Part shown: piece after piece, positions 41,958 to 63,505 of the stretch
Position numbering within the stretch: position 1 is the first letter of the stretch
How the letters are laid out: each line of letters starts with the position of its first letter
Source: an uncultured Opitutia bacterium
GTDB taxonomy: Bacteria > Verrucomicrobiota > Verrucomicrobiia > Opitutales > Opitutaceae
NCBI GenBank assembly: GCA_903825285.1
Contig: CAIJZY010000014.1
Location: 186,001 to 250,000 of the forward strand
DNA: 64,000 nucleotides
Direction: 5' to 3'
The notes under the pieces: generated by a model
What the model was told of the DNA's origin: nothing
The model's database searches: none
Seen by the model: the letters and a program-made list of their open reading frames with translations, nothing else
Program-made: the position numbers and the translations under genes

Positions 41958-41989
41958 AACGCGTGCATCCCATGATTGCGGACTCCACC

Positions 41990-47219: not shown

Positions 47220-48146
47220 TCAGAGCAGGCCCTGCAGCACGTTGGGCAGGCGCTGGAGCGAGTTGGCGATCGACGCGCGGGCGAGCATGTTCTCGGGGCC
47301 GTCAGCGCCGTAGAGGATGTTCCAGCCGTCGAGCTCGAGCCAGGCGTCGGCGACCACGGGCTCGATCTGCTCGAAGCCGCCGCCGATGCCGGTGTGGCGC
47401 ACAAGGTAGTCGGCCACCTGCACACCGGCCGCGAACAGCCGGTGGCGCGGCGCGCGCGCCGGCTCGTGGTGGTACCGCACGGCCATGATGATCTCCTCGG
47501 CGAGCTGGTGGCGCTCCAGGTAGTGCGCGCCGATGCGGCCGTGGTCCCAGCCGATGAGCTCGCGCTCGAGGCGGCACACCGCCGCGGGATCGCGCGCCGG
47601 CGTGGCCAGCAGCACGGCCAGCTCCTGGGGGAAGGCGTACGCCATCACGACCTTGCCGACGTTGTGGAGCAGGCCGACCAGGTAGTCCGTGTCGTCGTCG
47701 GTCGGCAGCGCGGTCGAGGCCAGGATCTCGCGGCAGAGGATCGCGGTGCCGATGCTGTGCGTCCACAGCTCCTTCCACGGCAGCCCGGGCGACGCGTTCG
47801 ACTGGAACTGCTCAAGCTCCTCCAGCACGGGCGTCGCGATGGACAGCTCGCGAATCTGCCGCAGGCCGAGGAAGAACACGGCCTCCTCGATGTTGTTCAC
47901 GCGCGCGGACAGGCCGAAGAAGACCGAGTTCACCAGCCGCAGCAGCCGCGCCGACAGCGACGGGTCGCGCCGGATGATCTCCGCGATCTGCGAGTTCAGG
48001 CTGCTCTCGGAGTGGATCAGCTCGCTCAGCGCGCGGTTGATGCTCTGGAGCGAGGCCAGTTTTGGGCACGCGTCGATCCGACGCTTGATTTCGGATTCGG
48101 CGTAGGGCGCGGCGGGGGCGGTGGGAGTGGGAAGGGCGACGGGCAT
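47220..48146 (-). CDS. HDOD domain protein
   Basis: This 308-residue protein is dominated by an HDOD domain (about 20-225): CPKLASLQSINRALSELI, IIRRDPSLSARLLRLVNSVF, NIEEAVFFLGLRQIRELSI, DYLVGLLHNVGKVVMAYAF and GWDHGRIGAHYLERHQL. The HN in LLHNVGK is close to the HD of true phosphohydrolases, but the full metal set is incomplete. It lies upstream of, and probably in one operon with, the PAS kinase at 45284, suggesting the HDOD protein and kinase form one signalling unit. Confidence 0.87.
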   Translation of the reverse strand: MPVALPTPTAPAAPYAESEIKRRIDACPKLASLQSINRALSELIHSESSLNSQIAEIIRRDPSLSARLLRLVNSVFFGLSARVNNIEEAVFFLGLRQIRELSIATPVLEELEQFQSNASPGLPWKELWTHSIGTAILCREILASTALPTDDDTDYLVGLLHNVGKVVMAYAFPQELAVLLATPARDPAAVCRLERELIGWDHGRIGAHYLERHQLAEEIIMAVRYHHEPARAPRHRLFAAGVQVADYLVRHTGIGGGFEQIEPVVADAWLELDGWNILYGADGPENMLARASIANSLQRLPNVLQGLL

Positions 48147-48351: not shown

Positions 48352-50229
48352 GTGCAGCCCGTCAAACTCCAGCGTCTCCTCCATGAGACGGCGACCCATC
48401 TCCAAGCCGGCCGGCTGGAGGCCGCCGCGCGGCTGTGCGCGCAGGCGCGGACCCAGGCGCCGCGGGACGCCGGCGTCCTCGGCCTGTCCGGCCTCGTCGC
48501 CCTCCAGCAGGAGAAATTCGCCGACGCGGCCACCTGGCTGGGCAGCGCCGCCCGGCTGCAGCCGCGCTCCTCCGCGGTGCACCTGCGGCTCGGGTTCGCG
48601 CTGGCCAAGCTCGGCCGCCACGAGGACGCCGAGCCCGCCCTGCGCGCCGCGCTCGCGCTCGCGCCGGGCGACGCCGAGGTCTGGGACACGCTCGGCTATG
48701 TGCTGAAGGCCCGCGGCCAGCTGGACGAGGCCATCCGCGCCCACCGCTGCGCGGTCGAGCTCAAGCCGGGCCGCGCGCACAGCTGGTACAATCTCGGGCA
48801 TGCGCTCCTTTTCGCCGGCCGGGCCACCGAGGCGCTGGCCTGCCACGAGCGCGCCTTGGCCGCCGAGCCGGCCTTCGCCAAGGCCCATTACGGCCGGGCG
48901 CTCGCCCTGCAGCAGAGCCACCGCCTGCCCGAGGCCGTGGCCGCGTTCGCCGAGGCGCTGCGCGCCGAGCCGGGCAACCACGCCGCCCGCAGCTACCGGC
49001 TCCTCGCCCTCAACTATCTCGACGGCTGCCCGCGCGAGGGCCTCTTCGCCGAGCACGCCAACTTCGGCGCGGCCGTCGGCGCGCCCGCCGCCGAGCCGGT
49101 GCTGTCGCACGCACCCAAGCCCGGCCGGCGCCTGCGCGTCGCCTTCCTCTCGCCCGACCTGCGCGAGCACTCCGTCGCCTATTTCCTCGAGCCGCTGCTG
49201 GCCCACCTCGATCCCGGCCGCTTCGAGACGGTGCTTTACCACGACCACTTCATCACCGACGCCACCTCGGAGCGGCTGCGCGCGCACGCCACGCTGTGGC
49301 GCAACTTCGTCGGCCAGCCCGCCGCCGCGGTCGAGGCCGTCATCCGGGCCGACGCCCCGGACGTGCTCGTCGACCTCGCCGGCCACACCGGGCTCAACCG
49401 CCTGCCGCTCTTCGCCCGCCGGCTCGCGCCCGTGCAGATCAGCTATCTCGGCTACCCGAACACCACGGGGCTGCGGGCAATGGACTACCGCCTGGTCGAC
49501 GCCGTGACCGATCCCGTGGTGGATGGTGACAGCGGCCACACGGAGAAGCTGGTGCGCTTCGCCCCGACGGCCTGGGCCTACCAGCCCCCGGCGGCGGCGC
49601 CCGAGCCCGCGTCCCGGCCCGCCGCGGCCGGCGCCCCCGTGACGTTCGGCTGCTTCAACAATTTCGCCAAGGTCACTGACACCACGCTGGCCGCCTGGGG
49701 CCGGCTCCTCGCCACGGTGCCCGGCTCCCGGCTCCGGCTCAAGGCCACCGGGCTGGGCGAGCCCGCCATTGCCACGGACGTCCGCGCGCGGCTCCAGCGC
49801 GCCGGCCTCGTGCCCGACCGGGTCGACCTGATCGAGCGCACGGAGACCGTGGCCGAGCACCTGGCCCTGTACCACGGGGTCGATGTCGCCCTCGACACCT
49901 TCCCGTACCACGGCACGACCACGACCTGCGAGGCCCTGTGGATGGGCGTGCCGGTCGTGACGCTGGCCGGCGACCGTCACGCGGCGCGGGTCGGCGCGAG
50001 CCTGCTGCGCGCGGTGGGGCATCCCGAGTGGATTGCCGCGACATGGGACGACTATCTCCACATTGCCGCGGACCTCGCGCGCGATCCCGCCCGCCTGGCG
50101 GCGGCGAGCCGCGATCTCCGCGCCGACCTGCGCGCCTCGCCGCTGCTGGACCATGCCGCCCAGGGCAGCCGGTTCGCCGCGGCGCTGCGCGCGTGCTGGG
50201 TGGAGTGGTGCGGCCGGACCGCCGCCTGA
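48352..50229 (+). CDS. SPINDLY/OGT-type O-linked N-acetylglucosaminyltransferase-like protein 1 (TPR-GT41)
   Basis: The GTG start at 48352 gives 625 residues. An N-terminal TPR superhelix (about 1-215; LRLGFALAKLGRHEDAEPAL, LGYVLKARGQLDEAIRAHR) precedes a GT41 catalytic region from about 260. This has LRVAFLSPDLREHSVAYFL, DLAGHTGLNRLPLFARRLAP, TFGCFNNFAKVTD and the nucleotide-sugar segment PYHGTTTTCEALWMGVPVV with LAGDRHAARVGASLL. This family transfers GlcNAc or related sugars to Ser/Thr. It lies 8 kb before two Ser/Thr-rich flagellins and is followed after 4 bases by a paralogue. Flagellin glycosylation is the likely job. Confidence 0.9.
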   Translation: MQPVKLQRLLHETATHLQAGRLEAAARLCAQARTQAPRDAGVLGLSGLVALQQEKFADAATWLGSAARLQPRSSAVHLRLGFALAKLGRHEDAEPALRAALALAPGDAEVWDTLGYVLKARGQLDEAIRAHRCAVELKPGRAHSWYNLGHALLFAGRATEALACHERALAAEPAFAKAHYGRALALQQSHRLPEAVAAFAEALRAEPGNHAARSYRLLALNYLDGCPREGLFAEHANFGAAVGAPAAEPVLSHAPKPGRRLRVAFLSPDLREHSVAYFLEPLLAHLDPGRFETVLYHDHFITDATSERLRAHATLWRNFVGQPAAAVEAVIRADAPDVLVDLAGHTGLNRLPLFARRLAPVQISYLGYPNTTGLRAMDYRLVDAVTDPVVDGDSGHTEKLVRFAPTAWAYQPPAAAPEPASRPAAAGAPVTFGCFNNFAKVTDTTLAAWGRLLATVPGSRLRLKATGLGEPAIATDVRARLQRAGLVPDRVDLIERTETVAEHLALYHGVDVALDTFPYHGTTTTCEALWMGVPVVTLAGDRHAARVGASLLRAVGHPEWIAATWDDYLHIAADLARDPARLAAASRDLRADLRASPLLDHAAQGSRFAAALRACWVEWCGRTAA

Positions 50230-50233
50230 ACCG

Positions 50234-52216
50234 ATGCCGCCCGCCAAGCTCCAGTCGCTCCTGCAGACGGCGGTGGCCCACCACCGTGGCGGCCGCCTGG
50301 CCGAGGCCGAGCAGCTCTACGCCCGCGTGCGGGCCGCGGCCCCGGCGAATTTTGACGCGCTGCACCTGTCCGGCCTCCTCGCGGTCCAGCAGGGCCGCTG
50401 GACGGATGGGGCGGGCCTGCTGCGGCGCGCACTCAAGCTCAACCCGCGATCGGCCCTGGCCGAAATGCGGCTCGGGCTGGCGTGCGCGGGCGCGGGTGAC
50501 GCGGCCGCGGCCGCGTCACACCTGCAGGCCGCCGTGGACCGCGAACCCACGCTCGCCGAAGGCTGGTGTCACCTCGGCGTGGCCCTGCGCTCCCTCAGCC
50601 GGCCCGCGGACGCCCGCGCCGCCTACGCCCGCGCGCTGGCGCTCAAGCCCGACTACGCCGAGGCGCACGACCGCCTCGGCGCGCTCGTGAGCGAGACGGA
50701 GGGTTTCGCCGCCGCGGTGCCGCACTTCCGGCGGGCGGTCGAGCTGCAGCCGGACCATCTGACGGGCTGGGCCAACCTCGGCGCCGCGCTCGCCCAGGCC
50801 GGCGCGCCCGCGGAGGCGCTGGCCTGCTTTGAGCGGGTGCTCGCGGCGGAGCCCGGCCACGCGCTCGCCCTCACCGGCCGCGCGCTGGTGCATCAGGAGG
50901 CCGGCCGCGTGGCCGCAGCCGTCGCGGATTACACGACGGTCCTGGCCGCCCATCCCCGCCACCATGAGGCCCGCAGCGGCCGGCTGCTCGCGCTGCATTA
51001 CCTCGACGGCGTGAGCCGCGAGGACCTGTTTGCCGATCATGCCGCCTTTGGCACGGTGGTGGGGCTGCAGCCCGCGCCGACGCTGCCGAACCGCCCGGAG
51101 CCCGGCCGGCGGCTGCGGGTGGGATTCCTTTCGCCGGACCTCCGCGCGCATTCCGTCGCCTATTTTCTCGAGCCCCTGCTCGCGCACCTCGATCCCGCGC
51201 AGTTTGAGCTCTGCCTTTATCATGATCACCCGCGGGTGGATGCCATGTCCGCCAAGCTGCGGCAGCACGCCGCGGTGTGGCGGCACTTCGCCGGCAGCTC
51301 CCACGCGGCGGTCGAGTCGGCGATCCGGGCCGATGCGCCGGATGTGCTCTTCGATCTCGCCGGGCACACCGGGCTCAACCGCCTGCCGCTCTTCGCCCGC
51401 CGGCTGGCGCCGGTCCAGATCACCTACCTGGGCTACCCCGACACCACCGGCCTGCGCGCGATGGACTACCGCTTCGTTGACGCCATCACGGATCCCGTTG
51501 GCGAGGCCGAGGCCGGCCACACCGAGCAACTCGTGCGCTTCGCGCCCACCGCGTGGAGCTACGCCCCGCCAGCCGACGCGCCCGAACCGGCGCCCCCGCC
51601 GTGCGTGGCCGGCGCGCCGGTGACGTTCGGGTGCTTCAACAACTTCGCGAAGATCACCGACGTCACCCTCGGCGCCTGGGCCCGCGTCCTGGCCGCCGTG
51701 CCGGGCTCCCGGCTGCTCCTCAAGGGGCACGGACTGGACGCCCCGGACTTCGCCGCCGCGCTGCGGCCGCGCCTCGCCGCGGCGGGACTCGACCCCGCCC
51801 GCGTCGAGCTCCTCGGCCGCACGTCCGGCCTTGCGGCGCACCTCGCGCTGTATGCGCGCGTGGATGTCGCCCTCGACTCGTCTCCCTACCACGGCACGAC
51901 CACCACCTGCGAGGCGCTGTGGATGGGCCGGCCGGTTGTCACCCTGCCCGGCGACCGGCACGCGTCGCGCGTCGGTGCCAGCCTGCTCACCGCCGCCGGC
52001 CATCCCGAGTGGATCGCGGCGGACTGGGACGACTACGTCCGCCGCGCGGCGGACCTGGCCCGCGATCCCGCCCGGCTGGCGGAGTTGAGCCGGGGGTTGC
52101 GCGCCGAGCTCCGGGCCTCGCCGCTGCTGGACCATGCGGGGCAGGGCGCCCGGTTCGGCGCGGCCATCCGGGACTGCTGGACGGTCTGGTGCACGCGGGC
52201 GGTGGCGGTGCCATAG
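50234..52216 (+). CDS. SPINDLY/OGT-type glycosyltransferase-like protein 2 (TPR-GT41)
   Basis: This 660-residue paralogue of the preceding gene has one additional TPR region: TPR units at about 1-245 (LQTAVAHHRGGRLAEAEQLY, LGVALRSLSRPADARAAY, LGAALAQAGAPAEALACFE) and GT41 from about 293 (LRVGFLSPDLRAHSVAYFL, DLAGHTGLNRLPLFARRLAP, TFGCFNNFAKITDVTL, PYHGTTTTCEALWMGRPVV). The catalytic halves are very similar across both genes, pointing to tandem duplication. Divergence is mostly in the TPR region, which selects the protein substrate. The ATG at 50234 is 4 bases after the previous stop, so the pair is one transcript. Confidence 0.9.
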   Translation: MPPAKLQSLLQTAVAHHRGGRLAEAEQLYARVRAAAPANFDALHLSGLLAVQQGRWTDGAGLLRRALKLNPRSALAEMRLGLACAGAGDAAAAASHLQAAVDREPTLAEGWCHLGVALRSLSRPADARAAYARALALKPDYAEAHDRLGALVSETEGFAAAVPHFRRAVELQPDHLTGWANLGAALAQAGAPAEALACFERVLAAEPGHALALTGRALVHQEAGRVAAAVADYTTVLAAHPRHHEARSGRLLALHYLDGVSREDLFADHAAFGTVVGLQPAPTLPNRPEPGRRLRVGFLSPDLRAHSVAYFLEPLLAHLDPAQFELCLYHDHPRVDAMSAKLRQHAAVWRHFAGSSHAAVESAIRADAPDVLFDLAGHTGLNRLPLFARRLAPVQITYLGYPDTTGLRAMDYRFVDAITDPVGEAEAGHTEQLVRFAPTAWSYAPPADAPEPAPPPCVAGAPVTFGCFNNFAKITDVTLGAWARVLAAVPGSRLLLKGHGLDAPDFAAALRPRLAAAGLDPARVELLGRTSGLAAHLALYARVDVALDSSPYHGTTTTCEALWMGRPVVTLPGDRHASRVGASLLTAAGHPEWIAADWDDYVRRAADLARDPARLAELSRGLRAELRASPLLDHAGQGARFGAAIRDCWTVWCTRAVAVP

Positions 52217-52227
52217 CATGATTGGGG

Positions 52228-52254
52228 TTCAGTTTCCCTCCGCTGCGCCGATCA
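52228..52254 (+). promoter_or_regulatory. Sigma-28-like promoter for HDOD protein 3
   Basis: TTCAGTTT-N11-GCCGATCA, 19 bases before the ATG at 52274. Twelve of 16 positions match the enteric FliA consensus with exact spacing. Confidence 0.62.
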
Positions 52255-52273
52255 ACTTCCTGATTCACCGCCT

Positions 52274-53110
52274 ATGATCGCCACCCCCGTCTCGCGCGAG
52301 ATGCTGCTGCACGTCGTCAAAGTCCTGCCGGCGGCGCCGCAGATTCTGGCCCATTTGGGCCGGCTCCTGCTGGACATGAATTCCGGCCTGTCCGACGTCA
52401 CGGACCTCCTGCGGCGGGACGCCGGCCTCACCGCGCGCATCATCCGCGTGGCCAACAGCCCGGTCTACAACTCGGCCGAGCCGTCCACGTCGCTGATTGA
52501 CGCGCTGGCCCGGGTGGGCTTTCGCGAGGTTTACCGTCTGACCGGCTTTGCGGCCGTCGCCCAGATCGCGGACCAGCGCCTGCCGCTGTACGGCCTGTCC
52601 GGCGCCCAGTTCCGCGAGAACGCGCTCCTCACCGCGCTGGTGATGGAGTCGCTGGCCCCCGCGGCCGGCGTGGACCCGCGACTGGCCTACACGGCGGGGC
52701 TGCTGCGCTCGACCGGCAAGATCGCGCTCGACCGGATGCTGCGCGACGACGCGCGGGTGGGATCGCTCGGCGAGGTGGCGGATCTGGCCGAGGGGGAGAC
52801 CCGCGCGGCGGGCTTGGACAATTGCGCGGCCGCCGCGATCATTCTGCACGAGTGGCGCTTTCATGAGGACATGATCGCCGCGATCCGGGATCACTATGCG
52901 CCCAAGGCCGGCTCGATTCGCCTGGCCTACCTGCTGAACCTCGCCGCCGGCGAGGCGGAACGGTACGGCCATGGCCTGCACGGCGAGGCCGGTTACTGGG
53001 AAATCACGCCGGCCCGGCTGGCCGCCGCCGGGGTGGGGCGGGAGGAACTCCGCCAGGCCACGAAGCGCGCGGGCGTGTCGTTCGAGGCCCTGCGCGCGGT
53101 GGTCGCCTGA
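52274..53110 (+). CDS. HDOD domain protein
   Basis: This 278-residue protein is almost entirely HDOD: LPAAPQILAHLGRLLLDMNS, LLRRDAGLTARIIRVANSPV, LIDALARVGFREVYRLTGF, LAYTAGLLRSTGKIALDRM. The HD/HN metal dyad of catalytic HD domains is replaced (LLRSTGK), so it is likely a non-enzymatic signalling protein. It is closest in layout to the HDOD protein at 41990. It sits between glycosyltransferase genes and has its own sigma-28-like promoter. Confidence 0.86.
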   Translation: MIATPVSREMLLHVVKVLPAAPQILAHLGRLLLDMNSGLSDVTDLLRRDAGLTARIIRVANSPVYNSAEPSTSLIDALARVGFREVYRLTGFAAVAQIADQRLPLYGLSGAQFRENALLTALVMESLAPAAGVDPRLAYTAGLLRSTGKIALDRMLRDDARVGSLGEVADLAEGETRAAGLDNCAAAAIILHEWRFHEDMIAAIRDHYAPKAGSIRLAYLLNLAAGEAERYGHGLHGEAGYWEITPARLAAAGVGREELRQATKRAGVSFEALRAVVA

Positions 53111-53126
53111 CCCGCGGGCTTTTCCC

Positions 53127-53154
53127 TCAAGTCGCGCGCGAACCGCGCCGATGA
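53127..53154 (+). promoter_or_regulatory. Sigma-28-like promoter for the fused glycosyltransferase
   Basis: TCAAGTCG-N12-GCCGATGA, following the HDOD stop at 53110. The TCAAG -35 and GCCGAT -10 are both present with 12-base spacing, as for the first flagellin. Confidence 0.58.
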
Positions 53155-53328
53155 GAAACGCGGTGCAAGCACCGATCTGCCAAAGTGAACCCGTTCGCCG
53201 CGTCCCGCCCGGGGCCGCGAAGGCTTGCTGGCGGCTGCGCGAAGGACTCCGCGCTCCGCAGGATGGCCGCGCCATGCAGGCGCGCCGCAAATCTCATCTC
53301 GACGGAGCGAGCGACCCCCTGGCCGCTC

Positions 53329-56300
53329 ATGCCGGCTGACGTCCTGCCGCCCCCGCCGGGAATTCTGCCGCCGTCATTCGCCCACGCGAAGTCGGCGCTC
53401 GCCGCCGCGCAGGAACATCCCTCCGCCCCGGCCGTCGCCGCCGCGCTGTCCGCCGCGCTCCGCGCCGCCGCCGCCGACCTCGCGGCCCTTCCGGCCGCGG
53501 ACCCCCGCACTCCGGCCGTGGGCCCCGCCCGCGAGCTGCTGCGCGCCGTCGCCGCCGCCGGGGTGCACGATGCCGCCGTCCCGCCCGAGGATCTGGCGAC
53601 CGCCGGCCGCACCGCCCCTCGCGGCTGGCCCGGCCTGCTGGCCGCGATGCTGCTGACGCCCGCCTGGCAATGGCCGGAGGCGCCGACGCTGTCGGCCGTG
53701 CCCCACTGGCTCTGGGGCGACTACACGGCGTGGATGTTCTCCCCCGTGCAGGGTTTTGCCGCCACGGGCGACGCCGACCGCTTTGCGGCGCACACGCTGC
53801 GCCGGCTGGAGGAATGGACGCTGACGCTGGAGCGCAACCACCGGGCGCCCGCCGCCCGGGCCGCGCTGGAGGCGTACGCGCGCCACGGCTCCGGCATCCC
53901 GCTCTATTTCCACGCCGGGAACCTGCGCCGGCATGCGGAGCTGCGGGGCCGGCTGCTGGCCCTGATGCTGGACCGCGACGCCCGCGGCGCCGAACTGGTC
54001 GCGGCCCCGCGCGCCGAGCAGCGCCTGCGCGTCGGCTTCGTGAACCGGCATTTCGGGTCACAGACCGAGACCTACACGACGCTCCCCACCTTCGAGCAGC
54101 TCGACCCGGCGCGCTTCGAGGTCGTGCTCTTTGCCTGCCACCGCAACGGCTCCCCGCTGGAGGACTACTGCCGCTCGCGGGCCCAGGAATTCAACGTGCT
54201 GCCGCGCGACCTCACCGGCCAGCTGGCGGCGCTCCGCGCGGCGCGGCTCGACGTCGTGGTCTTCGGCACCAACGTCACCGCCGTCTGCCACGAGGTCACC
54301 TGGCTCGCGCTGCACCGCGTGGCCCCGCTCCAGGTTGTCAACAACTCGTCCTGCATCACGACCGGCTTTGCCACCGTCGACCTGTACGTGTCGGGCGCCC
54401 TAACCGAGACAGCGGAGGCGGCGGAGCAGTTCACCGAGCGCCTCGGGCTGCTGCCCGGTCCGGCGCACGCGTTCAACTACGAGGCCGACCAGCAGCCGCC
54501 GGCGGGGACGTGGACCCGCGCGGCGCTCAACCTGCCGGAGGACGCGACGGTGTTCGTGAGCGCGGCCAACTATTTCAAGGTCATCCCCGAGATGCAGGAG
54601 GCCTGGGCCCGCCTGCTGGCGGCGGTGCCCGGCTCGCGGCTGCTGCTGCACCCGTTCAACCCGAACTGGTCGTCGAGCTACCCGATTCACCGCTTCTGCG
54701 CGGGCTTCGCCCGCGTGCTCGAGGCGCATGGCGTCGACCGCAGCCGGCTGGTGGTGTCCAGCGCGCGGCTGCCCTCGCGCAGCGACGTGAAGGAGCTGCT
54801 GCGGGTCGGCGACATCTACCTCGACAGTTTTCCGTTCGGCGGCGTGAACTCGCTGGTCGACCCGCTCGAGCTTGGCCTGCCGGTCGTGGCCTGGGAGGGC
54901 GACAGCTTCCGCTCCCGCATGGGCGGGGCGCTGCTGCGGACCCTCGGCCGGCCCGAGCTCATCGCCACCGACGAGGCCGGCTACCGCGCCATCGCCGCGG
55001 GCCTGGCCACGGATCCCGCGCGCCGCGCCGCGCTGGGGGCGGACCTTCGGGCCCGGATGGAGCGCATGCCCCTGTTTCTCGACACGCTCGCGGCGAGCGA
55101 CGCCTTCGGGTCGCTGCTCGAGGCCGCCTACGACGAGCTCGCGACCGTGGGCCGCGCCGTGTTCCGCCGCCACCGCACGCCCGTCGTGGCGGCCGGCGCC
55201 GCGGATCCCGCCTCACCGGAGGAGCGGCACGAGCTGGGCCGGCAACTCCTCACGCTGGGCCGGGCGGATCGCGCCTTGCCCTACCTGCTGGCCGCGGTGC
55301 AGCACCGCGGCGATGACGCCGCGCTGTGGCACGACCTGGCGCGGGCGTTCCAGGCGACGCAGCAGCTGCCGCAGGCGCTGCAGGCCGCGGAAGCCTGCCT
55401 GAAACTGGACGCGGGCAACGTCGAGTGCTGGCTGTTCGTCGCCGAGCTGGCCGCGGCGGCCGGCCATGCGGAATTTTACGCCGAGGCCCGGGCCACGCTC
55501 CGCGAGCTGGCGCCCGGGGACCCGCGCGTCGAGGCGTTGGACCGGCGGCCGGCGGACACGACCATGACCACGGTTCCGCCCCCGGCGGCACCGCCGCACA
55601 TCCTGCTGTACACCGACGACCCCGAATTCGGCGGCGTCGCCCAGTACAACCACAACCTCCTGCTCGCGCTGGCCCGCCAGGGCTACCGCGTCTCCTGCGT
55701 CCAGTCGCGCAGCGACAGCCCCCTGATCCGCGAGCAGCAGGCGCAGGGCATCCGCCATCACTGGCTCGACTACCACACCGGCCGCGAGTTTGCGCGGACC
55801 GTGACGGACCCCGCGGACGCCGAGCGCATTTTCCGCGCGGAGCACCCGGACCTCATCGTGTTCAGCGACTGCTGCCCCGTGTCGAACCTCGCGGCGCGGC
55901 AGGTGGCGCTGGCGCGCGGGTTGCCCTACGTCGTCGTGGTCGGCTTCGTGGGCGCGTACCTGGCGAAGAACTTTGCGGCGCGGCTCCCGCAGCTGGCGGC
56001 CCAGTATGCGCACGCCCGGCAGGTGATCGCCGTCTCGCAGGAAAACCTGGCGCTGCTCCACCGGAGCTTCGGCCTCGGTTCGAGCCGCGGCGAGGTGATC
56101 CACTACGGCCGGCCGGAGCGCTTCTTCGCGCCCCGCGACCCGGCGGTGCGGGCCCGGCTGCGCGCCGAGCAGAATCTCCCGGACGACGCGGTGGTCTGCT
56201 TCACGGCCGCGCGCCTGACCGCGATCAAGGGCTTCGTGCACCAGCTGCAGGCCGCCCAGCAGCTGCGGGCGGCCCCGGCCGGCCCGCGCATCTGCTTCGT

Positions 56301-56757
56301 GTGGGCGGGCGAGGGCGACCAGCGTCCCGAGCTCGAGCGCGAGATCGCCCGCCTGCGCCTCGGGGCCGACGTGCGGCTCCTCGGGCAGCGCTGGGACATC
56401 GCCGACTGGTACGACGCCGCGGACATCTTTGTGCTGCCCTCGCACCTCGAGGGCATGCCGCTCGCGATCATGGAGGCCATGGCCAAGGGCCTGCCGGTGA
56501 TCGCCACGGCCGTCAGCGGCATTCCCGAGGAGCTCGGCGACACGGGCCAGCTGCTGCCCGACCCGGCGACCGATGCGCCCGGCGTGGTGCGCGGGCTCGT
56601 CACCACGATCGCGGCCTGGGCCGCGGATCCCGCCCTGCGGCTCGAGGCCGGCCGCCGCGGCCAGGAGCGGGCCCGCGAACTGTTCCGGGAGGAACGGATG
56701 CTCGCGCACTCGCTCGCGCTGCTGCAGCGCTGCCTGCCGGTTCCCGCCGTCCGCTGA
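53329..56757 (+). CDS. Giant fusion glycosyltransferase: GT41-like, TPR linker, GT4
   Basis: From ATG 53329 the protein has 1142 residues. An Ala-rich N-terminal region precedes a GT41/SPINDLY-like domain from about 232 (LRVGFVNRHFGSQTETYTTL, LQVVNNSSCITTGFATVDLY, LDSFPFGGVNSLVDPLELG, VVAWEGDSFRSRMGG), TPR-like units at about 630-735 (LLTLGRADRALPYLLAAVQ, FQATQQLPQALQAAEACLKL) and a GT4 domain from about 757 (DDPEFGGVAQYNHNLLLALA, HLEGMPLAIMEAMAKGLPVI with the E-x7-E motif). Start codons further upstream (GTG 53185) give leader-like sequence. Two catalytic modules on one chain would allow sequential sugar addition. The next gene overlaps by one base. Confidence 0.87.
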   Translation: MPADVLPPPPGILPPSFAHAKSALAAAQEHPSAPAVAAALSAALRAAAADLAALPAADPRTPAVGPARELLRAVAAAGVHDAAVPPEDLATAGRTAPRGWPGLLAAMLLTPAWQWPEAPTLSAVPHWLWGDYTAWMFSPVQGFAATGDADRFAAHTLRRLEEWTLTLERNHRAPAARAALEAYARHGSGIPLYFHAGNLRRHAELRGRLLALMLDRDARGAELVAAPRAEQRLRVGFVNRHFGSQTETYTTLPTFEQLDPARFEVVLFACHRNGSPLEDYCRSRAQEFNVLPRDLTGQLAALRAARLDVVVFGTNVTAVCHEVTWLALHRVAPLQVVNNSSCITTGFATVDLYVSGALTETAEAAEQFTERLGLLPGPAHAFNYEADQQPPAGTWTRAALNLPEDATVFVSAANYFKVIPEMQEAWARLLAAVPGSRLLLHPFNPNWSSSYPIHRFCAGFARVLEAHGVDRSRLVVSSARLPSRSDVKELLRVGDIYLDSFPFGGVNSLVDPLELGLPVVAWEGDSFRSRMGGALLRTLGRPELIATDEAGYRAIAAGLATDPARRAALGADLRARMERMPLFLDTLAASDAFGSLLEAAYDELATVGRAVFRRHRTPVVAAGAADPASPEERHELGRQLLTLGRADRALPYLLAAVQHRGDDAALWHDLARAFQATQQLPQALQAAEACLKLDAGNVECWLFVAELAAAAGHAEFYAEARATLRELAPGDPRVEALDRRPADTTMTTVPPPAAPPHILLYTDDPEFGGVAQYNHNLLLALARQGYRVSCVQSRSDSPLIREQQAQGIRHHWLDYHTGREFARTVTDPADAERIFRAEHPDLIVFSDCCPVSNLAARQVALARGLPYVVVVGFVGAYLAKNFAARLPQLAAQYAHARQVIAVSQENLALLHRSFGLGSSRGEVIHYGRPERFFAPRDPAVRARLRAEQNLPDDAVVCFTAARLTAIKGFVHQLQAAQQLRAAPAGPRICFVWAGEGDQRPELEREIARLRLGADVRLLGQRWDIADWYDAADIFVLPSHLEGMPLAIMEAMAKGLPVIATAVSGIPEELGDTGQLLPDPATDAPGVVRGLVTTIAAWAADPALRLEAGRRGQERARELFREERMLAHSLALLQRCLPVPAVR

Positions 56758-58259
56758 TGAACCCCGCCGCCCCCATCATGGTCCTCGCGGACAACCCGCA
56801 GCACCCGCTGTTCAGCAGCTGGCTCGGCGGGATGAGCCGGCCGGTGACGGGCCTGACCCACGCGGCGATCGACCACGCCTTTGACCCGGAGACGGGCCTC
56901 ATCGTCACGGCCGACTGCTACCACGAGCCGCGGGTGACGCTCCTGCGCCGCGCGATGGAGCAGGGCATCCCGACGCTCGTGCTGGCCGACGGCATCCTGG
57001 AGTACCGCAACACCTGGGAGCATCCGCAGCTGCCGCCGGGCTCGCTGTTCCAGCCGGTGCTCGGGCACAAGATCGCGTGCCTCGGGCGTTCGCAGGCCCG
57101 CGTGCTCGAGTCGTGGCACAACGCCGGCCGCTGCGAAGTCACGGGCTCGCCCCGCTTCGACCGCTACGCCGGCCGCCCGCGCCGCGTGCGCCCCGCGGGG
57201 GCGCCGTGCCGCATCCTCATCATGACGGCGCTCACGCCGTATTTCACGCCGGAGCACGAGGCGAAGGTGAAGCGTTCCCTGGCCGACCTGAAGGCGGCGC
57301 TGGCGCGCAAGCCGGCCCCAGGCGCCGCGCCGATCGAGCCCGTGTGGCGGCTCACGCAGGGGCTCGACCGCGAGCTCGGCGTGGCGGCCCGCCAGGCGGA
57401 GTGGGCCGGGCGCGACCTGGCCGACGTGCTCCAGGAAGTGGACGCGGTCATCACCACGCCCTCGACCACCATGCTCGAGGCCATGCTGCTCGGGCTGCCG
57501 GTGGCCTCGCTCGACTACAGCAATTCGCCGCCGTACGTGACCCCCGCGTGGCGGATCACCGCGGCGGAGCACCTCGCGCCGACGCTCGCCGAGCTGGCGA
57601 ACCCGCCCGCGCCCAAGCTCCTGTTCCAGGACGCCGTGCTGCACGACGCGCTCGAGTGCGCGACGCCCGCGGCGCCGCGCCTGCAGGCGCTCGCGGAGGA
57701 CATGATTCGCCTCGGACAGGAGGCGCGCCGGGCGGGCCAGCCCCTGCAGCTGCCCGGCCGCATGGTTGGCGGACCCGGTCCCGCCGTGGCGGAGGAGAGC
57801 TTTCGGCTGGCGGAACTGTATCCCGGCCACCCGCAGTTCGCGACGGACGACGTCCGCGCGCTGCAGGTCGAGGTCGGCCACCTGCGCCACCATGCGGCGG
57901 AGATGGAGCGCCGCGCGGCGGCGATCCGCGCCGCCAGCCTGCAGCACGCGCAGCTGGCGGTGGCGTGGCGGGCCCCGTTCGAGGCGGCGCGGATTTTGCG
58001 CGGCCTGGGGCAGGGGGCGGCGGCGCGGCAGCAGCTGCTCGCCGGCGTGAAGGCGGTGGAGAGCTGCCAGAATCCCCCGGTGATCCTCGAGGCGCTGCTG
58101 GCGATCACGCCCGAGCTGGCGCGGCTCGACGCGGGCCGCGCGCGTTATCTTCTCGACGTGGCCCTGCAGCTGGCGACCGGCCTGCGCAACGCGCCCGCGC
58201 GCGCGCAGGCGGAGCGGCTGCTCGCGGAGATTTCGTCGCCCGTCGCCGGCGTCGCGTGA
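56757..58259 (+). CDS. GT-B-like putative glycosyltransferase of surface polymer type
   Basis: This 500-residue protein starts in the TGATG overlap with the fused glycosyltransferase. The first 330 or so residues look like a GT-B fold related to CDP-glycerol/surface-carbohydrate transferases: LFSSWLGGMSRPVTGLTHAA, TLVLADGILEYRNTWEH, LIMTALTPYFTPEHEAKV and the sugar-nucleotide-type ITTPSTTMLEAMLLGLPVAS. The last 160 are helical and Ala/Arg-rich. The family assignment is weaker than for its neighbours. Operon position with a GT4/GT41 fusion and directly before fliC argues for filament glycan synthesis. Confidence 0.75.
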   Translation: MNPAAPIMVLADNPQHPLFSSWLGGMSRPVTGLTHAAIDHAFDPETGLIVTADCYHEPRVTLLRRAMEQGIPTLVLADGILEYRNTWEHPQLPPGSLFQPVLGHKIACLGRSQARVLESWHNAGRCEVTGSPRFDRYAGRPRRVRPAGAPCRILIMTALTPYFTPEHEAKVKRSLADLKAALARKPAPGAAPIEPVWRLTQGLDRELGVAARQAEWAGRDLADVLQEVDAVITTPSTTMLEAMLLGLPVASLDYSNSPPYVTPAWRITAAEHLAPTLAELANPPAPKLLFQDAVLHDALECATPAAPRLQALAEDMIRLGQEARRAGQPLQLPGRMVGGPGPAVAEESFRLAELYPGHPQFATDDVRALQVEVGHLRHHAAEMERRAAAIRAASLQHAQLAVAWRAPFEAARILRGLGQGAAARQQLLAGVKAVESCQNPPVILEALLAITPELARLDAGRARYLLDVALQLATGLRNAPARAQAERLLAEISSPVAGVA

Positions 58260-58353
58260 GGCGCGCGCCGGGCGCCACGCCCGGGGCTGCACGTTCCGGA
58301 AATTCTGAAGGGGAAATTTTCGGTTGGGGAAAAATTTCGCCGCCACTTTCGCA

Positions 58354-58381
58354 TAAAGCTTTTCGCGGGGCGGGCCGATAG
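58354..58381 (+). promoter_or_regulatory. Sigma-28 promoter of flagellin 1
   Basis: TAAAGCTT-N12-GCCGATAG, 103 bases upstream of the flagellin ATG at 58484. This is the reference site in this window because the downstream gene is an unambiguous FliA-class gene. The remaining leader is a long 5' UTR with an AAGGA ribosome-binding site. Confidence 0.82.
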
Positions 58382-58483
58382 CTCCCCACGTCAAGGCAAG
58401 TGCCGAGACCGGCGCGATCCAGAGCCGATTCCACTGGATCCGACTGCGACCCGGACGTCGCGCTTAGCATCAAGGAAGATCCC

Positions 58484-59302
58484 ATGTCTGTTGTCATTAA
58501 TACCAATTACGCGGCGACCGTCGCCGCGAACAACCTCGCCCGCTCCAACGAAATGTTGCAGAAGAGCCTTAACCGGCTCTCCAGCGGTTCCAAGATTGTC
58601 AGCCCCGCCGACGACGCGGGTGGCCTGGCCGTCTCCATGAAACTGTCCGCCTCGGCCCGTCGCCAGGGTGCGGTCTCCCAGAACATCGGCAACTCGGTCT
58701 CGTTCCTGCAGACGCAGGACGGCGTGCTCGCGGTCACCGGCAAGGTGCTCGACCGCATGGGCGAGCTGAAGACGCTCTACAACGACCCGACCAAGAACAC
58801 GAACGACCAGGCGAACTACGACGCCGAGTTCACCGAGCTGAAAAACCAGCTCACCTCCCTCACCGGCGAGAAGTTCAACGGCGTCGACCTGTTCGGCACG
58901 ACCGGCATGACGGTCTCCGCCACCGAGGACGGCAGCACATCCACGGCCATCAGCATCGCAGGCCGCGACCTCTCGAGCACCGCCACGGGCGTCGGCACGC
59001 TGACCGCCACGGGCGCCACCGATCTCGGGGCGATCACGCTGGCCGACATCACGGACGCGATCCAGAACGTCGCGACCTTCCGCGCCCAGAACGGCGCCGA
59101 GCAGAGCCGCCTCGGTTTCGCCGGCGAGCTGCTCACGGTCAACAAGGCCAACCTCGAGGCCGCCGCCAGCCGCATCACCGATGTCGACGTCGCGCAGGAG
59201 TCCACCTCCCTCGCGCGCTACAACATCCTGGTGCAGTCCGGCACGGCCATGCTCGCCCAGGCCAACCAGAGCGCCCAGGTCGCGCTCAAGCTGCTGCAGT
59301 AA
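58484..59302 (+). CDS. fliC: Flagellin 1
   Basis: This short 272-residue flagellin has a D0/D1 N-terminus (VVINTNYAATVAANNLARSN, LNRLSSGSKIVSPADDAGGL) and C-terminus (NVATFRAQNGAEQSRLGFAG, ASRITDVDVAQESTSLARYN, ILVQSGTAMLAQANQSAQVA), with only a small variable centre (about 135-195) rich in Ser/Thr (ATEDGSTSTAISIAGRDLSS). The centre is a likely O-glycosylation target for the nearby glycosyltransferases. The ATG at 58484 is preceded by an AAGGA site. A near-duplicate flagellin follows at 59532. Confidence 0.96.
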   Translation: MSVVINTNYAATVAANNLARSNEMLQKSLNRLSSGSKIVSPADDAGGLAVSMKLSASARRQGAVSQNIGNSVSFLQTQDGVLAVTGKVLDRMGELKTLYNDPTKNTNDQANYDAEFTELKNQLTSLTGEKFNGVDLFGTTGMTVSATEDGSTSTAISIAGRDLSSTATGVGTLTATGATDLGAITLADITDAIQNVATFRAQNGAEQSRLGFAGELLTVNKANLEAAASRITDVDVAQESTSLARYNILVQSGTAMLAQANQSAQVALKLLQ

Positions 59303-59324
59303 GCCTGAGGCTCCTGCTCCCCCC

Positions 59325-59357
59325 GCGCGGGGCCGGGCTAGTCCCCCGGTCCCGCGC
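59325..59357 (+). terminator. Long GC hairpin between the two flagellin genes
   Basis: GCGCGGGGCCGGG (59325-59337) pairs with CCCGGTCCCGCGC (59345-59357), 13 bp with one G-T wobble and a 7-base loop. It starts 23 bases after the flagellin stop. No U-run, so it is either a Rho-assisted terminator or an mRNA 3' stabiliser. Confidence 0.6.
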
Positions 59358-59454
59358 CCCGACTCTCGCGGTTGTCTGTCTCGGGTGGGGCCGGGTTCCT
59401 TAACATCCTCCCTTTCCGCCGCTCACCCGGCGGATTCCCTTTGAGGCTCTCGCC

Positions 59455-59481
59455 TCAGACGGTGCGGTCCGGCGCCGATTT
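59455..59481 (+). promoter_or_regulatory. Sigma-28-like promoter of flagellin 2
   Basis: TCAGACGG-N11-GCCGATTT, 50 bases before the ATG at 59532. The -10 is good and spacing exact, but the -35 has only the TCAG form shared with the site at 45254. It may be weaker than the promoter of flagellin 1. Confidence 0.5.
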
Positions 59482-59531
59482 CCCGGACACGTGGCGACGA
59501 CGGATAGTCGCATAAGATCAAGGATAGAACC

Positions 59532-60350
59532 ATGTCAGTCGTGATTAACACTAACTACTCGGCGACGATTGCTGCAAACAATCTCGCCGCTTCGAACACC
59601 ATGCTCCAGAGAAGCCTGAACCGCCTCTCGAGCGGGTCCAAGATCGTCGGCCCTGCGGATGACGCGGGTGGCTTGGCGGTCTCGATGAAACTGTCCGCCG
59701 CGGCCAAGCGCCAAGGTGCGGTTTCGAGCAACATCGGCAACGCCGTTTCGTACCTGCAGACGCAGGACGGCGCCCTGCAGGTGGCGGGCAAGGTCCTCGA
59801 CCGCATCAGCGAGTTGAAGACCCTGTACACGGACCCGACCAAGAACAGCAACGACAAGGCCAACTACGATGCTGAGTTCACCGAACTCAAGTCGCAGCTG
59901 ACCTCCGTCTCCGGTGAGAAGTTCAACGGCGTCAGCCTCTTCGGCTCCAGCGGCCTCACGGTCGCCGTGACTGAGGATGGCAGCACGTCGTCCGCCGTGA
60001 CCATCGCTGGTCGCGACCTGAACGGCACCACCGCCGGCGTTGCGGCGCTGACCAGCACGAGCGCGACCGATCTCGGCGCGATCACGCTGGCCGACGTCAC
60101 GGATGCGATCCAGAACGTTGCGACGTTCCGCGCCAGCAACGGTGCGGAGCAGAGCCGTCTCGGCTTCGCTTCGGAGCTGCTCACGGTCAACAAGGCCAAC
60201 CTCGAGGCCGCCTCGAGCCGCATCACCGATGTGGACGTGGCCTCGGAGTCCACGCAGCTCGCCCGTTGGAACATCCTGGTTCAGTCCGGTACCGCCATGC
60301 TCGCTCAGGCCAACCAGAGCGCGCAGAGCGCCCTCAAGCTGATCCAGTAA
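59532..60350 (+). CDS. fliC: Flagellin 2
   Basis: This 272-residue paralogue of flagellin 1 has the same length and nearly identical ends (VVINTNYSATIAANNLAASN, LNRLSSGSKIVGPADDAGGL; ASRITDVDVASESTQLARWN). Differences concentrate in the central Ser/Thr-rich stretch (EDGSTSSAVTIAGRDLNGTT, ALTSTSATDL). Codon use is visibly less GC3-biased (for example GTT, GCT and CGT codons) than in flagellin 1, so it is not a very recent copy; it may be tuned for different expression. It is separated from flagellin 1 by a hairpin and its own promoter. Confidence 0.96.
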   Translation: MSVVINTNYSATIAANNLAASNTMLQRSLNRLSSGSKIVGPADDAGGLAVSMKLSAAAKRQGAVSSNIGNAVSYLQTQDGALQVAGKVLDRISELKTLYTDPTKNSNDKANYDAEFTELKSQLTSVSGEKFNGVSLFGSSGLTVAVTEDGSTSSAVTIAGRDLNGTTAGVAALTSTSATDLGAITLADVTDAIQNVATFRASNGAEQSRLGFASELLTVNKANLEAASSRITDVDVASESTQLARWNILVQSGTAMLAQANQSAQSALKLIQ

Positions 60351-60490
60351 CCACCACGCACGAGATTGTCATGATTCGCCCAGTCCTGGCCGCCGCGTGA
60401 GCGGCGGCCAGGCTACCGGATCACTCCAATCCCCTGCGGAGGCCCCGACGGGTCGCTGGCTTCCCGCCAGTTCCCCCAGGTCAGGCAGTC

Positions 60491-60508
60491 GCACTGGTCA
60501 CCCAGTGC
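60491..60508 (+). other. Small hairpin after flagellin 2
   Basis: GCACTGG (60491-60497) and CCAGTGC (60502-60508) form a perfect 7-bp stem with a 4-base loop, just before the main terminator hairpin. Confidence 0.45.
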
Positions 60509-60512
60509 AAAC

Positions 60513-60538
60513 AAGGCCCCGGCTTCGTCCGGGGCCTT
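60513..60538 (+). terminator. Intrinsic-type terminator of flagellin 2
   Basis: AAGGCCCCGG (60513-60522) pairs with CCGGGGCCTT (60529-60538) around a 6-base loop, followed by CGCCTGTTTAC. It separates flagellin transcripts from fliD. Confidence 0.75.
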
Positions 60539-60577
60539 CGCCTGTTTACAAATCACCCCTCCGGCCGGAAAACACCC

Positions 60578-60605
60578 TAAAGTGGCGCCCCCCCGGTGAC
60601 GATAG
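60578..60605 (+). promoter_or_regulatory. Sigma-28 promoter of fliD
   Basis: TAAAGTGG-N12-GACGATAG, 32 bases upstream of the fliD ATG. One mismatch in the -10 core; otherwise the same layout as the flagellin 1 promoter. Confidence 0.66.
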
Positions 60606-60637: not shown

Positions 60638-62578
60638 ATGTCCGGCATCCAAATCTCGGGACTCCTGTCCAATTCCGCGTTCGATTGGAAGTCGGTCGTT
60701 GACCAGCTGATTACGGCCGACAGCACGCCGATCACCAATCTCAACGCGCAGAAGACGAAGAATTCCGACCAGGTGACGGCGCTGGCCAGCCTCGGCACCT
60801 CGATGACGGCGCTGCAGGACTCGCTCCAGTCCATCCGCGCGAACGACCTCTTTTCCGCGCGCAACGTCAATTCCGACACCGCCAACACGACGTGGAAGTC
60901 GAATTCCGCCAGCGGCGCCACCGTCGGCGACTACACCTTTGCCGTCCAGCAGCTGGCCACCGCCACCCGCATCCAGGGCGCGGCGGACATCGGCAGCGGC
61001 CTCGCGCCGACGAGCGCCGTGTCCGGCCTCACGTTGGCCAACCTGAACACGGCCACCGCCGTGACCGCGGGCAACATCACGGTGAACGGCAAGACCGTCA
61101 CCGTCGCGCTCACCGACTCGCTGCAGGACGTCTTCAGCAAGATTGCCACGGCGACGGGGAACGACGTGACCGCCAGCTACGACCCGACCTCCGACGGGAT
61201 CTCGCTCACCAGCGCGAGCGGCCCGATCGTCCTCGGCGCGGCCAACGACACGAGCAACTTTCTCTCGGTGATGAAGCTCGCCAACAACGGCACCGCCACC
61301 GTGGCGAGCTCGGCCACCCTGGGCACGGTCAAGCTGGCGAGCCCGCTCGCGAGCGCCGGCCTCAAGGGCAGCGTGACGGCGGTGGACGGCTCCGGCAACG
61401 GCTCGTTCGCCATCAACGGCGTCAGCATCTCCTTCAACCTGAACACCGACTCGCTGAGCGCGGTCCTCGCCCGCATCAACCAGGCCGGCGCGGGCGTGAG
61501 CGCCAGCTACGACTCCACGGCGGACCGCGTGACCCTGACCAACACCCTGACCGGCGACACCGGCATGGGGCTGACGGACGTGGCCGGCGGCCTGCTCGGC
61601 GCGCTGGGGCTGACCAGCCCCGGCGGCACGCTGCAGCGCGGGCAGAACGCGCTTTTCACGGTGAACGGCGGCGCGACGCTGGCCAGCGCGAGCAACACGC
61701 TCGACTCCTCGATCCACGGCGTCACGGGCCTCAGCGTGACAGTCAACAGCAAGACGACCCAGACCGTCTCCGTGCAGAGCGACACGGCGTCGATGCAGAC
61801 CGCCATCCAGGACGTCATCGACAAGTTCAACGCGCTGCAGGACGCCATCGACACGAACACCAAGACCAGCGTGAGCGGCTCGACGGTCACGACCTCGGTG
61901 CTGTCCAACAACCGCGAGGTGCAGAGCTGGGCGAGCCATCTCCGCTCGCTGGCGTTCGACGCCGTCTCCGGCGTGACCGGCACGGTGCAGCGGCTCGACA
62001 ATCTCGGCATCGACTTCGACTCGACGACCGGTCACCTCGCGATCAAGAGCCAGGACAAGCTGTCGAGCGCGCTGGCGGATCATCCCGACGACGTGAAGGC
62101 GTTTTTCCTGACGCCGGGCACCGGCCTCGTGTCGAAGGGCTACACCTACCTGACCTCGCTGCTCACCAACGAGAACGACCAGCAGAGCCGGCTGAACCAG
62201 GCCTCGTCCGACATCGACACGCAGATCACCACGCTGCAGGCGCGGCTCGACAATGAGCGCACGACGCTGACCAACGCCTTCATCAAGATGCTCGATGCCC
62301 AGTCGACGGCGCAGAGCCAGAACACCTACCTGACGAACACGTTCTTCAACAACAACAGCAACAGTTCCTGCTGGGTGGCGCGCGCGGTCTACGGCGCGGG
62401 CAACCCGCGCTGGCTGGTGTTCCGCGGCTGGCTGCTCCACCGCGCGCCGGCATGGTTCCGCTGGCTCTACCTCCGTCATGGCGCGCGCTTCGCGGTCTGG
62501 CTCGGCGACAAGCCGCGGCTGCAGGCGGTCATCCGCCGCTGGATGGACGCGCGCATTGCCGGCCTCGCGGCCGCCTGA
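60638..62578 (+). CDS. fliD: Flagellar hook-associated protein 2 (filament cap) with extra C-terminal CFI-box-like module
   Basis: This 646-residue protein has FliD N-terminal (MSGIQISGLLSNSAFDWKSV) and C-terminal domains (NLGIDFDSTTGHLAIKSQDK, TYLTSLLTNENDQQSRLNQA, ERTTLTNAFIKMLDAQSTAQ) around a repetitive Ser/Thr-rich centre. FliD caps the growing filament and folds incoming flagellin. Unusually, after an Asn/Ser linker (FFNNNSNSS) it carries about 69 extra residues from 578: CWVARAVYG, WLVFRGWLLHRAPAWFRWLY, RHGARFAVWL and AVIRRWMDARI. These are very Trp/Arg-rich and resemble the CFI-box (CFIATAAYG) type C-terminal modules. The linker-tail reading frame is continuous, so this is a true fusion. 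Confidence 0.9.
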   Translation: MSGIQISGLLSNSAFDWKSVVDQLITADSTPITNLNAQKTKNSDQVTALASLGTSMTALQDSLQSIRANDLFSARNVNSDTANTTWKSNSASGATVGDYTFAVQQLATATRIQGAADIGSGLAPTSAVSGLTLANLNTATAVTAGNITVNGKTVTVALTDSLQDVFSKIATATGNDVTASYDPTSDGISLTSASGPIVLGAANDTSNFLSVMKLANNGTATVASSATLGTVKLASPLASAGLKGSVTAVDGSGNGSFAINGVSISFNLNTDSLSAVLARINQAGAGVSASYDSTADRVTLTNTLTGDTGMGLTDVAGGLLGALGLTSPGGTLQRGQNALFTVNGGATLASASNTLDSSIHGVTGLSVTVNSKTTQTVSVQSDTASMQTAIQDVIDKFNALQDAIDTNTKTSVSGSTVTTSVLSNNREVQSWASHLRSLAFDAVSGVTGTVQRLDNLGIDFDSTTGHLAIKSQDKLSSALADHPDDVKAFFLTPGTGLVSKGYTYLTSLLTNENDQQSRLNQASSDIDTQITTLQARLDNERTTLTNAFIKMLDAQSTAQSQNTYLTNTFFNNNSNSSCWVARAVYGAGNPRWLVFRGWLLHRAPAWFRWLYLRHGARFAVWLGDKPRLQAVIRRWMDARIAGLAAA

Positions 62579-63403: not shown

Positions 63404-63430
63404 TAAAGTTCCCGGCGTTTTGGCCGATCT
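63404..63430 (+). promoter_or_regulatory. Sigma-28 promoter of flgM-like/fliS operon
   Basis: TAAAGTTC-N11-GCCGATCT, the best match in the window to TAAAGTTT-N11-GCCGATAA. It lies 37 bases after the lipoprotein stop and 76 bases before ATG 63506. An inverted repeat GTTTCG-TAACT-CGAAAC (63483-63499) sits in the leader just before the start codon. Confidence 0.75.
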
Positions 63431-63505
63431 CCCCCATATCATTCAACGGCGTTCCCTGTACCCGAACTATCAGTGGCAGACCGTTTCGTAACTCGAAACA
63501 ACCCA

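Follow-up and report, generated by a model that had tools for sequence, protein, structure and literature searches.

A candidate flagellin glycosylation locus in the Opitutaceae

Flagellin glycosylation islands with GT41 enzymes (COG3914) are already known from the Enterobacteriaceae. The passages of that work used here describe one to three glycosyltransferases (GTs) per island, note that most of the GT41 enzymes also carry methyltransferase domains, and read them as N-acetylglucosamine (GlcNAc)-type, leaving a wider specificity open (PMC4875605). A protein combining tetratricopeptide repeats (TPRs) with a GT is likewise known from Caulobacter crescentus, where the cytosolic FlmG is described, in the excerpted account, as dedicated to flagellins and using pseudaminic acid (PMC7591256). 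In plants, the TPR-GT41 protein SPINDLY (SPY) of Arabidopsis has three residues, K689, A731 and Y744, reported in the relevant section of one paper to discriminate guanosine diphosphate (GDP)-fucose from uridine diphosphate (UDP)-GlcNAc, the human O-GlcNAc transferase (hOGT) having L866, R904 and C917 at these positions (PMC10027727). Here we describe a 64-kb stretch of DNA (contig CAIJZY010000014.1, 186001-250000; hereafter the window, to which all positions refer) from the draft genome (3.74 Mb, about 96% complete) of an uncultured Opitutia bacterium of the family Opitutaceae, in which four genes, gtA to gtD, precede two flagellin genes, fliC1 and fliC2. We see a somewhat better than even chance that this cluster is a flagellin glycosylation island in which gtA and gtB would use a GDP-sugar, most likely GDP-L-fucose, and gtC and gtD would extend or diversify the modification.

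All six genes lie on the plus strand. The genes gtA (48352-50229, 625 amino acids (aa), GTG start) and gtB (50234-52216, 660 aa) encode TPR-GT41 proteins; gtC (53329-56757, 1142 aa) encodes a fusion of a helical domain, GT41, TPR and GT4; and gtD (56757-58259, 500 aa) encodes a putative GT-B protein with a helical C-terminal part. The flagellins encoded by fliC1 (58484-59302) and fliC2 (59532-60350), each of 272 aa, both match Flagellin_N (PF00669) and Flagellin_C (PF00700) in Pfam. The GT41 family PF13844, with a gathering cut-off of 25 bits, is matched by gtA (128 bits), gtB (122 bits) and gtC (69 bits), and these three, all in the cluster, are the only GT41 proteins that a search of the whole genome found. 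GT genes thus adjoin flagellin genes, the arrangement by which flagellin glycosylation islands are recognized. The initial annotation of this DNA had placed the GT genes directly upstream of fliC1-fliC2; the open reading frames (ORFs) and their GT41, TPR, GT4 and flagellin matches agree with it, except that a gene for an HDOD single-domain protein (52274-53110, plus strand; PF08668, 111.5 bits) intervenes between gtB and gtC. Its further view, that the three GT41s differ and have divergent TPR regions, holds for gtC, the only strongly divergent one, but not for gtA and gtB, which are 60% identical.

When the locus is compared by description with the excerpted Enterobacteriaceae islands (PMC4875605), the likeness is the presence of GT41 SPINDLY-family genes beside flagellin genes. 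The differences are that no methyltransferase domain was matched by Pfam in gtA-gtD, that a GT41-GT4 fusion is present, that the donor signature is SPINDLY-type and that the phylum is another. As far as we searched the literature, three things are new: flagellin-linked bacterial GT41s with a SPINDLY-type donor signature, the strong co-occurrence in the verrucomicrobial family and the GT41-TPR-GT4 fusion. Among the open-licence matches listed, as judged from titles and the starts of abstracts, none concerned GT41 or O-fucose on flagellin in Verrucomicrobiota.

A SPINDLY-like donor site in gtA and gtB

The nearest solved relative of gtB, as a whole protein (E 1.4e-111, aligned in one stretch), and of the catalytic part of gtA (E 2.2e-78) is Arabidopsis SPINDLY. 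In the alignment, gtA and gtB are identical to SPY at H495, S496, V497, N661, N662, K665, K689, H728, Y744, T747, T748 and E752, and thereby retain almost every GDP-fucose contact of SPY, K689 and Y744 among them (PMC10027727, whose cited section lists further donor contacts, and, in part, PMC9715652). They differ from SPY in having Leu for Ala731 and a shorter region before the catalytic domain, and in being bacterial and flagellin-linked. The pair Lys689 and Tyr744, which marks the SPINDLY-like clan, is present in gtA and gtB and absent from gtC, which has His and Phe instead. None of the three has the OGT/SEC-like residues (Leu866, Arg904, Cys917), their counterparts being Lys/Leu/Tyr in gtA and gtB and His/Leu/Phe in gtC. 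The OGTs (human, fly, XcOGT and TtOGT) have the GT41 fold in common with these proteins; in alignments, hOGT, fly OGT and TtOGT (solved as a K341M mutant) differ at the donor site.

These residues bear on two alternative donors. In the first, the locus would be a flagellin O-GlcNAc island, with a modification of the N-acetylhexosamine (HexNAc) type and all GT41s using UDP-GlcNAc in the manner of OGT. Membership of gtA, gtB and gtC in GT41 agrees with this, as does the GlcNAc-type interpretation of the enterobacterial islands, where the passages cited leave room for a wider specificity (PMC4875605). We nevertheless find it distinctly unlikely: gtA and gtB have Lys/Leu/Tyr where hOGT has Leu866/Arg904/Cys917, and Lys689 and Tyr744 are argued, in the relevant part of the SPY work, to disfavour UDP-GlcNAc (PMC10027727). 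The HexNAc chemistry expected by the initial annotation is therefore not supported for gtA and gtB, whose donor pocket appears SPINDLY-like. In the second alternative, the donor of gtA and gtB would be a different GDP-sugar, of the GDP-mannose or GDP-rhamnose type, and the sugar attached would not be fucose. Such a donor would suit the role of K689, which recognizes guanine and not the sugar, and the departure from SPY at position 731; the fucose-contacting S496, Y744, T747 and V497 of SPY, however, are kept in gtA and gtB, and we regard this alternative as unlikely.

GDP-L-fucose is thus the donor that we prefer for gtA and gtB. A gmd gene (548 bits against a cut-off of 415) is present in the genome. 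It is followed, about 130 nucleotides downstream, by an fcl-like gene, for which Pfam gives only Epimerase and which probably encodes a GDP-fucose synthase (fcl). No NeuB was found in this genome (a control was matched in 9 of 14, and the genome is about 96% complete), nor in any of the eight family genomes in the sample of the order. A pseudaminic or legionaminic donor of the FlmG type was rejected, NeuB not being found here and being present in the order in 7 of 16 genomes with GT41 and 31 of 87 others (p 0.58). Set side by side by description with FlmG, as excerpted (PMC7591256), the locus resembles it in its TPR plus GT proteins and differs in that NeuB was not found. Taken together, the SPY-like contacts, the gmd and fcl-like genes and the NeuB result favour a GDP-sugar for gtA and gtB.

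In relatives (G numbers denote their genomes and L numbers the stretches fetched from them; L061 repeats G066, and L034 is the same as L061), the K689/Y744 pair is present in 22 of the 34 GT41 domains of an order-level alignment, three others having Lys with Cys and nine having neither. A family-level alignment of 45 domains, comprising the three of the window (also in the order-level alignment) and 42 from L061-L087, has the pair in 31; the rest are 12 gtC-type domains with His/Leu/Phe and two degenerate ones, and all 14 are gtC-type by best match. Every GT41 found in the flagellin stretches L073-L087 carries the pair.

Several observations weigh against our reading of the donor. At the position of I592 in SPY, gtA and gtB have Leu. 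Position 731 is Leu in gtA, gtB and gtC and Ala in SPY, so that gtA and gtB match two of the three published discriminating residues, and one flagellin-linked relative (L074:8400-11078) has Arg there, as in hOGT. Cys occupies position 744 in three order-level GT41s (L025, L030 and L032), and an intermediate group of prokaryotic enzymes with mixed residues is described in PMC10027727. The K689/Y744 pair is also found in GT41s of two genomes that have no Flagellin_N match, G008 (L007, L021) and G014 (L022); being general in the GT41 group and present in such genomes, it informs on the donor and not on the acceptor. Moreover, gmd exceeds its cut-off in 65 of the 103 order genomes (15 of 16 with GT41 and 50 of 87 others; p 0.005), and this is too widespread for it to count as specific support; it permits a GDP-fucose donor. 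Because residue 731 is Leu and not Ala, we do not claim that gtA and gtB belong to the SPINDLY-like clan; our claim is that they would work like SPY. This Leu and the intermediate group on record limit us to moderate confidence that their donor is a GDP-sugar, most likely GDP-L-fucose.

Association of GT41 with flagella

Flagellin_N is not specific to flagellins, as it also matches FlgL, and we therefore took it as a marker of flagella. Among 200 genomes of the family to which the window belongs, GT41 is present in 84, Flagellin_N in 112 and both in 79; in other words, Flagellin_N is found in 79 of 84 GT41-positive and 33 of 116 GT41-negative genomes (Fisher p 2e-22, ignoring kinship). Of the 11 genomes listed for the genus, three have both, eight have neither and none is mixed. 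Similarly, in a sample of 103 genomes of the order, with Flagellin_N in 34 and GT41 in 16, the marker accompanies 13 of the 16 GT41 genomes and 21 of the 87 others (Fisher p 2e-5, again ignoring kinship). It is also present in 12 of 12 genomes with a gtC-type GT41, some of them shared with the family sample; these 12 relatives, from one two-pattern scan, are classified as Opitutaceae, Opitutae/Opitutia or Verrucomicrobia.

The two are often close together. In at least 17 of the 84 GT41-positive family genomes (read by eye), GT41 lies within 20 kb of Flagellin_N, and of these 17, the 15 retrieved (L073-L087) all contain a GT41 and a fliC homologue. In the order, G003, G030 and G062 have the two less than 0.4 kb apart, and G018, G054, G072 and G095 have them no more than 4 kb apart. 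Given the co-occurrence across the family, the tie between GT41 and flagella exceeds mere proximity.

The association has its exceptions, which count against our reading: 33 of the 112 Flagellin_N-positive family genomes lack a GT41 match, Flagellin_N is absent from 3 of 16 GT41 genomes in the order and 5 of 84 in the family, and the fetched stretch holds no fliC or fliD in 8 of the 12 loci L061-L072, at least three of which are cut by a contig end (L061, L064 and L066). One could thus suppose that the GTs modify other proteins or a cell-surface polysaccharide and that the flagellin neighbourhood is incidental, as those five family genomes and the GT41 loci that lie far from flagellin would allow. 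We consider this very unlikely in view of the family-wide co-occurrence (79/84 versus 33/116), the joint presence or absence of GT41 and flagella within the genus, the recurrence of the adjacency across different families of the order, and the fact that SPY and OGT act on proteins. Action on lipopolysaccharide alone, which the initial annotation had set against flagellin glycosylation, also fits the co-occurrence poorly.

Flagellin is accordingly the kind of acceptor we favour, and its composition adds little to this choice. The Ser/Thr-rich centre pointed out by the initial annotation is indeed present, with 33-40% Ser/Thr over residues 121-180 when taken in 40-residue steps, and is weakly informative. 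We compared flagellins that matched FliC1/FliC2 by BLAST at E 1e-15, from 23 loci or window entries with GT41 and 20 without, dropping centres of fewer than 30 residues and including at least one distant member (L078_34). Where the genome has GT41 (42 flagellins), the centre had a mean Ser/Thr content of 31%; where it does not (31 flagellins), the mean was 27% (Mann-Whitney p 0.003, ignoring kinship). The Ser/Thr-rich centre was rejected as proof of glycosylation, its excess over GT41-negative flagellins being small, and this too tells against our interpretation.

gtC, gtD and a possible order of steps

Besides GT41, gtC has TPR and GT4 family matches in Pfam. Its AlphaFold2 model (mean pLDDT, the predicted local distance difference test, 86.5) comprises a helical N-terminal domain (without a TPR match in Pfam), a GT-B fold at about residues 230-605, TPR-like helices at about 630-740 and a second GT-B fold at about 757-1135. 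In structure comparison with Z scores and Foldseek, residues of about 66-608 match TtOGT, SPY and XcOGT (best Z 40.6, 5djs) and those of about 754-1139 match GT4 structures, BshA-like (best Z 36.6, BshA). By score, the GT41 part is about as close to SPY as to TtOGT. It has His/Leu/Phe at K689/A731/Y744 of SPY and keeps K665, and it departs from SPY at H495, S496, K689, H728, Y744, T747 and T748; judged by these residues, its donor site differs from that of gtA and gtB.

The Phe at the position of Y744 is shared with the N-glucosyltransferases of the HMW1C type, as reported for ApHMW1C in part of PMC9715652. The family NF049992 (HMW1C-like N-glucosyltransferase, cut-off 1000 bits) scores 39.9 bits with gtA and 31.5 with gtB and is not among the best 25 of 34 families for gtC. 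N-glycosylation by gtC was rejected, as the flagellins have few N-X-S/T sequons (one in FliC1 and three in FliC2).

The GT41-GT4 fusion is present in the window, G066, L062, L064 and L067. In L065, a gtC-type GT41 and a GT4 are encoded separately by adjoining genes, and the same stretch contains gtD, a gtA-type gene, fliC and fliD. In G050 (L039), a separate GT4 immediately precedes gtD. This pattern of split and fused forms suggests that the gtC-type GT41 and GT4 activities would work on one product. It is also what one would expect if gtC were a bifunctional primer-extender, its GT41 adding a first sugar and its fused GT4 a second, independently of gtA and gtB, and the retained K665 would be in keeping with such an activity. 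The seven departures from SPY listed above point the other way, as does the loss of K665 in several gtC-type paralogues, some of whose domains may be scaffolds, and we think this independent role possible though rather doubtful. The lysine is lost in L036:4013-6394, L039:3-1835, L071:9947-12343 and L072:9153-11519.

For gtD, only matches below the cut-off were obtained (DUF6716, BFO_1060 and TIGR04396), and a fold search with its low-confidence model (pLDDT 58.6) gave weak GT-B matches only, so that we claim no function from it. The protein is conserved (54-70% to the gtD of the window over four relatives), and the label GT-B-like used in the initial annotation is plausible.

What we observe is the gene content, the domains, how gtC is predicted to fold, which residues are conserved, the co-occurrence with flagella and the gmd and fcl-like genes; from these we infer the acceptor, the donor, the order of steps and any effect on motility. 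In the scheme we favour, gtA and gtB would act in the cytosol, before flagellin export. By analogy with FlmG and SPY, their TPR solenoid may dock flagellin, and their GT41 domain would draw on a GDP-sugar, most likely GDP-L-fucose, to glycosylate Ser/Thr residues in the central part of FliC1 and FliC2. Next, gtC, with its other donor site and fused GT4, could add a second kind of sugar or extend the first, and gtD could add or modify a further one. The initial annotation had read three GT41s as a sign of several protein targets or sites. This is one possibility; as gtA and gtB look duplicated and gtC combines another donor site with a fused GT4, the GTs are at least as likely to add different sugars or to extend a chain.

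It is tempting to go further and propose, tentatively, that bacterial SPINDLY-type enzymes are flagellin O-fucosyltransferases with an export-linked substrate, and that the same filament receives a second glycan, attached and lengthened by a bifunctional GT41-GT4 enzyme. If this were so, the little-characterised prokaryotic SPY-like proteins would have a dedicated substrate, and an enzyme type known from plants would be placed in the bacterial flagellar pathway. Flagellin is abundant, secreted and readily purified, which would make the donor and acceptor of SPY-like enzymes directly testable. In addition, a GT41 in a flagellin island should not be taken by default for a GlcNAc-transferase, as its donor residues can be read from the sequence.

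Arrangement and putative promoters

Homologues of fliC and of fliD (in the window 60638-62578, plus strand; a filament cap protein of 646 aa; PF02465 and PF07195) are on opposite strands in all 15 fetched loci that show both (L035, L037, L039, L041, L062, L065, L068, L075, L077, L079, L080, L081, L082, L083 and L085). Locus L062 has the same gene order on one contig, except that the pair between gtD and fliD reads fliC2-fliC1 and is on the minus strand, and the window block 58347-60547, which holds fliC1-fliC2, aligns to it reversed, both flanks aligning forward. By this alignment, the flagellin pair is locally inverted in the window, accounting for its all-plus-strand layout; the shared strand stressed by the initial annotation is thus true of the window but not of these relatives. 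With the pair inverted and carrying its own putative promoter, the GT genes and the flagellins are probably not one operon. An invertible flagellin switch is unsupported: neither the window nor L062 has an inverted stretch of 10 identical bases common to both flanks of fliC1-fliC2, and none of 11 inverted-repeat pairs brackets these genes.

Sites resembling flagellar-sigma (sigma-28, FliA-type) promoters were sought with a gapped scan based on the consensus and without shuffle control. With fixed spacing, the whole window has 24 matches at up to three mismatches, against 8.6 expected. Putative sites, all on the plus strand, precede fliC1 (58354-58381, TAAA-N16-GCCGATAG, one mismatch), fliD (60578-60605, two mismatches, with a counterpart in L062) and gtC (53127-53154, two mismatches). 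The gtC site, about 175 bases before the gene, has counterparts in the same position in G066 and L062, though their spacer differs, and is thus kept in three species, which fits co-expression of gtC with the filament genes. Before gtA, a sigma-28-like site is clear in G066 and poor in the window. Together with the adjacency and the co-occurrence, the gtC site lends support to the central proposal of the initial annotation, that flagellin, or a filament protein, would be glycosylated. The leader of about 175 bases between this site and the gtC start (53155-53328) contains short segments that seem to be conserved in G066 and L062, and it could possibly be a structured leader or contain an upstream start.

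Other features of the locus

FliD ends in an unusual C-terminal tail of 70 residues (about 62360-62575) that starts SSCWVARAVYG and is absent from FliD of G066 and L062. A search of the order sample at E 0.001 matched it in its own genome only (1 of 103), and comparison with Pfam and NCBIfam yielded nothing convincing (best E 7.6 and 5.4). The tail may resemble the 'CFI-box' C-terminal motif; it was not accepted as a known C-terminal domain. Similar tails occur in L065 and L085; that of L065 is 79% identical, compared with 61% for the whole FliD.

Three HDOD proteins lie in or near the cluster (52274-53110, 47220-48146 and 41954-42901). Two of them are beside GT genes at the same position in G066 and L062, where the place of the first between gtB and gtC is kept. 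Several PAS/hybrid histidine kinase genes are also near the cluster. Downstream, a sigma-28-like site (63404-63430) precedes a 105-aa ORF without a Pfam match (63473-63790), similar sites preceding its homologue in L035 and L062; the ORF that follows looks FliS-like.

Among the relatives, two gtA-type genes in draft genomes (L070:5592-7619 and L072:6168-8063) are broken across at least two frames and are either pseudogenes or assembly errors. Finally, G040 (L049:10010-14008) and G070 (L052:2561-6577) encode a double-GT41 polypeptide of about 1335 aa, some 14-15 kb from Flagellin_N genes, with the K689/Y744 pair in both domains.

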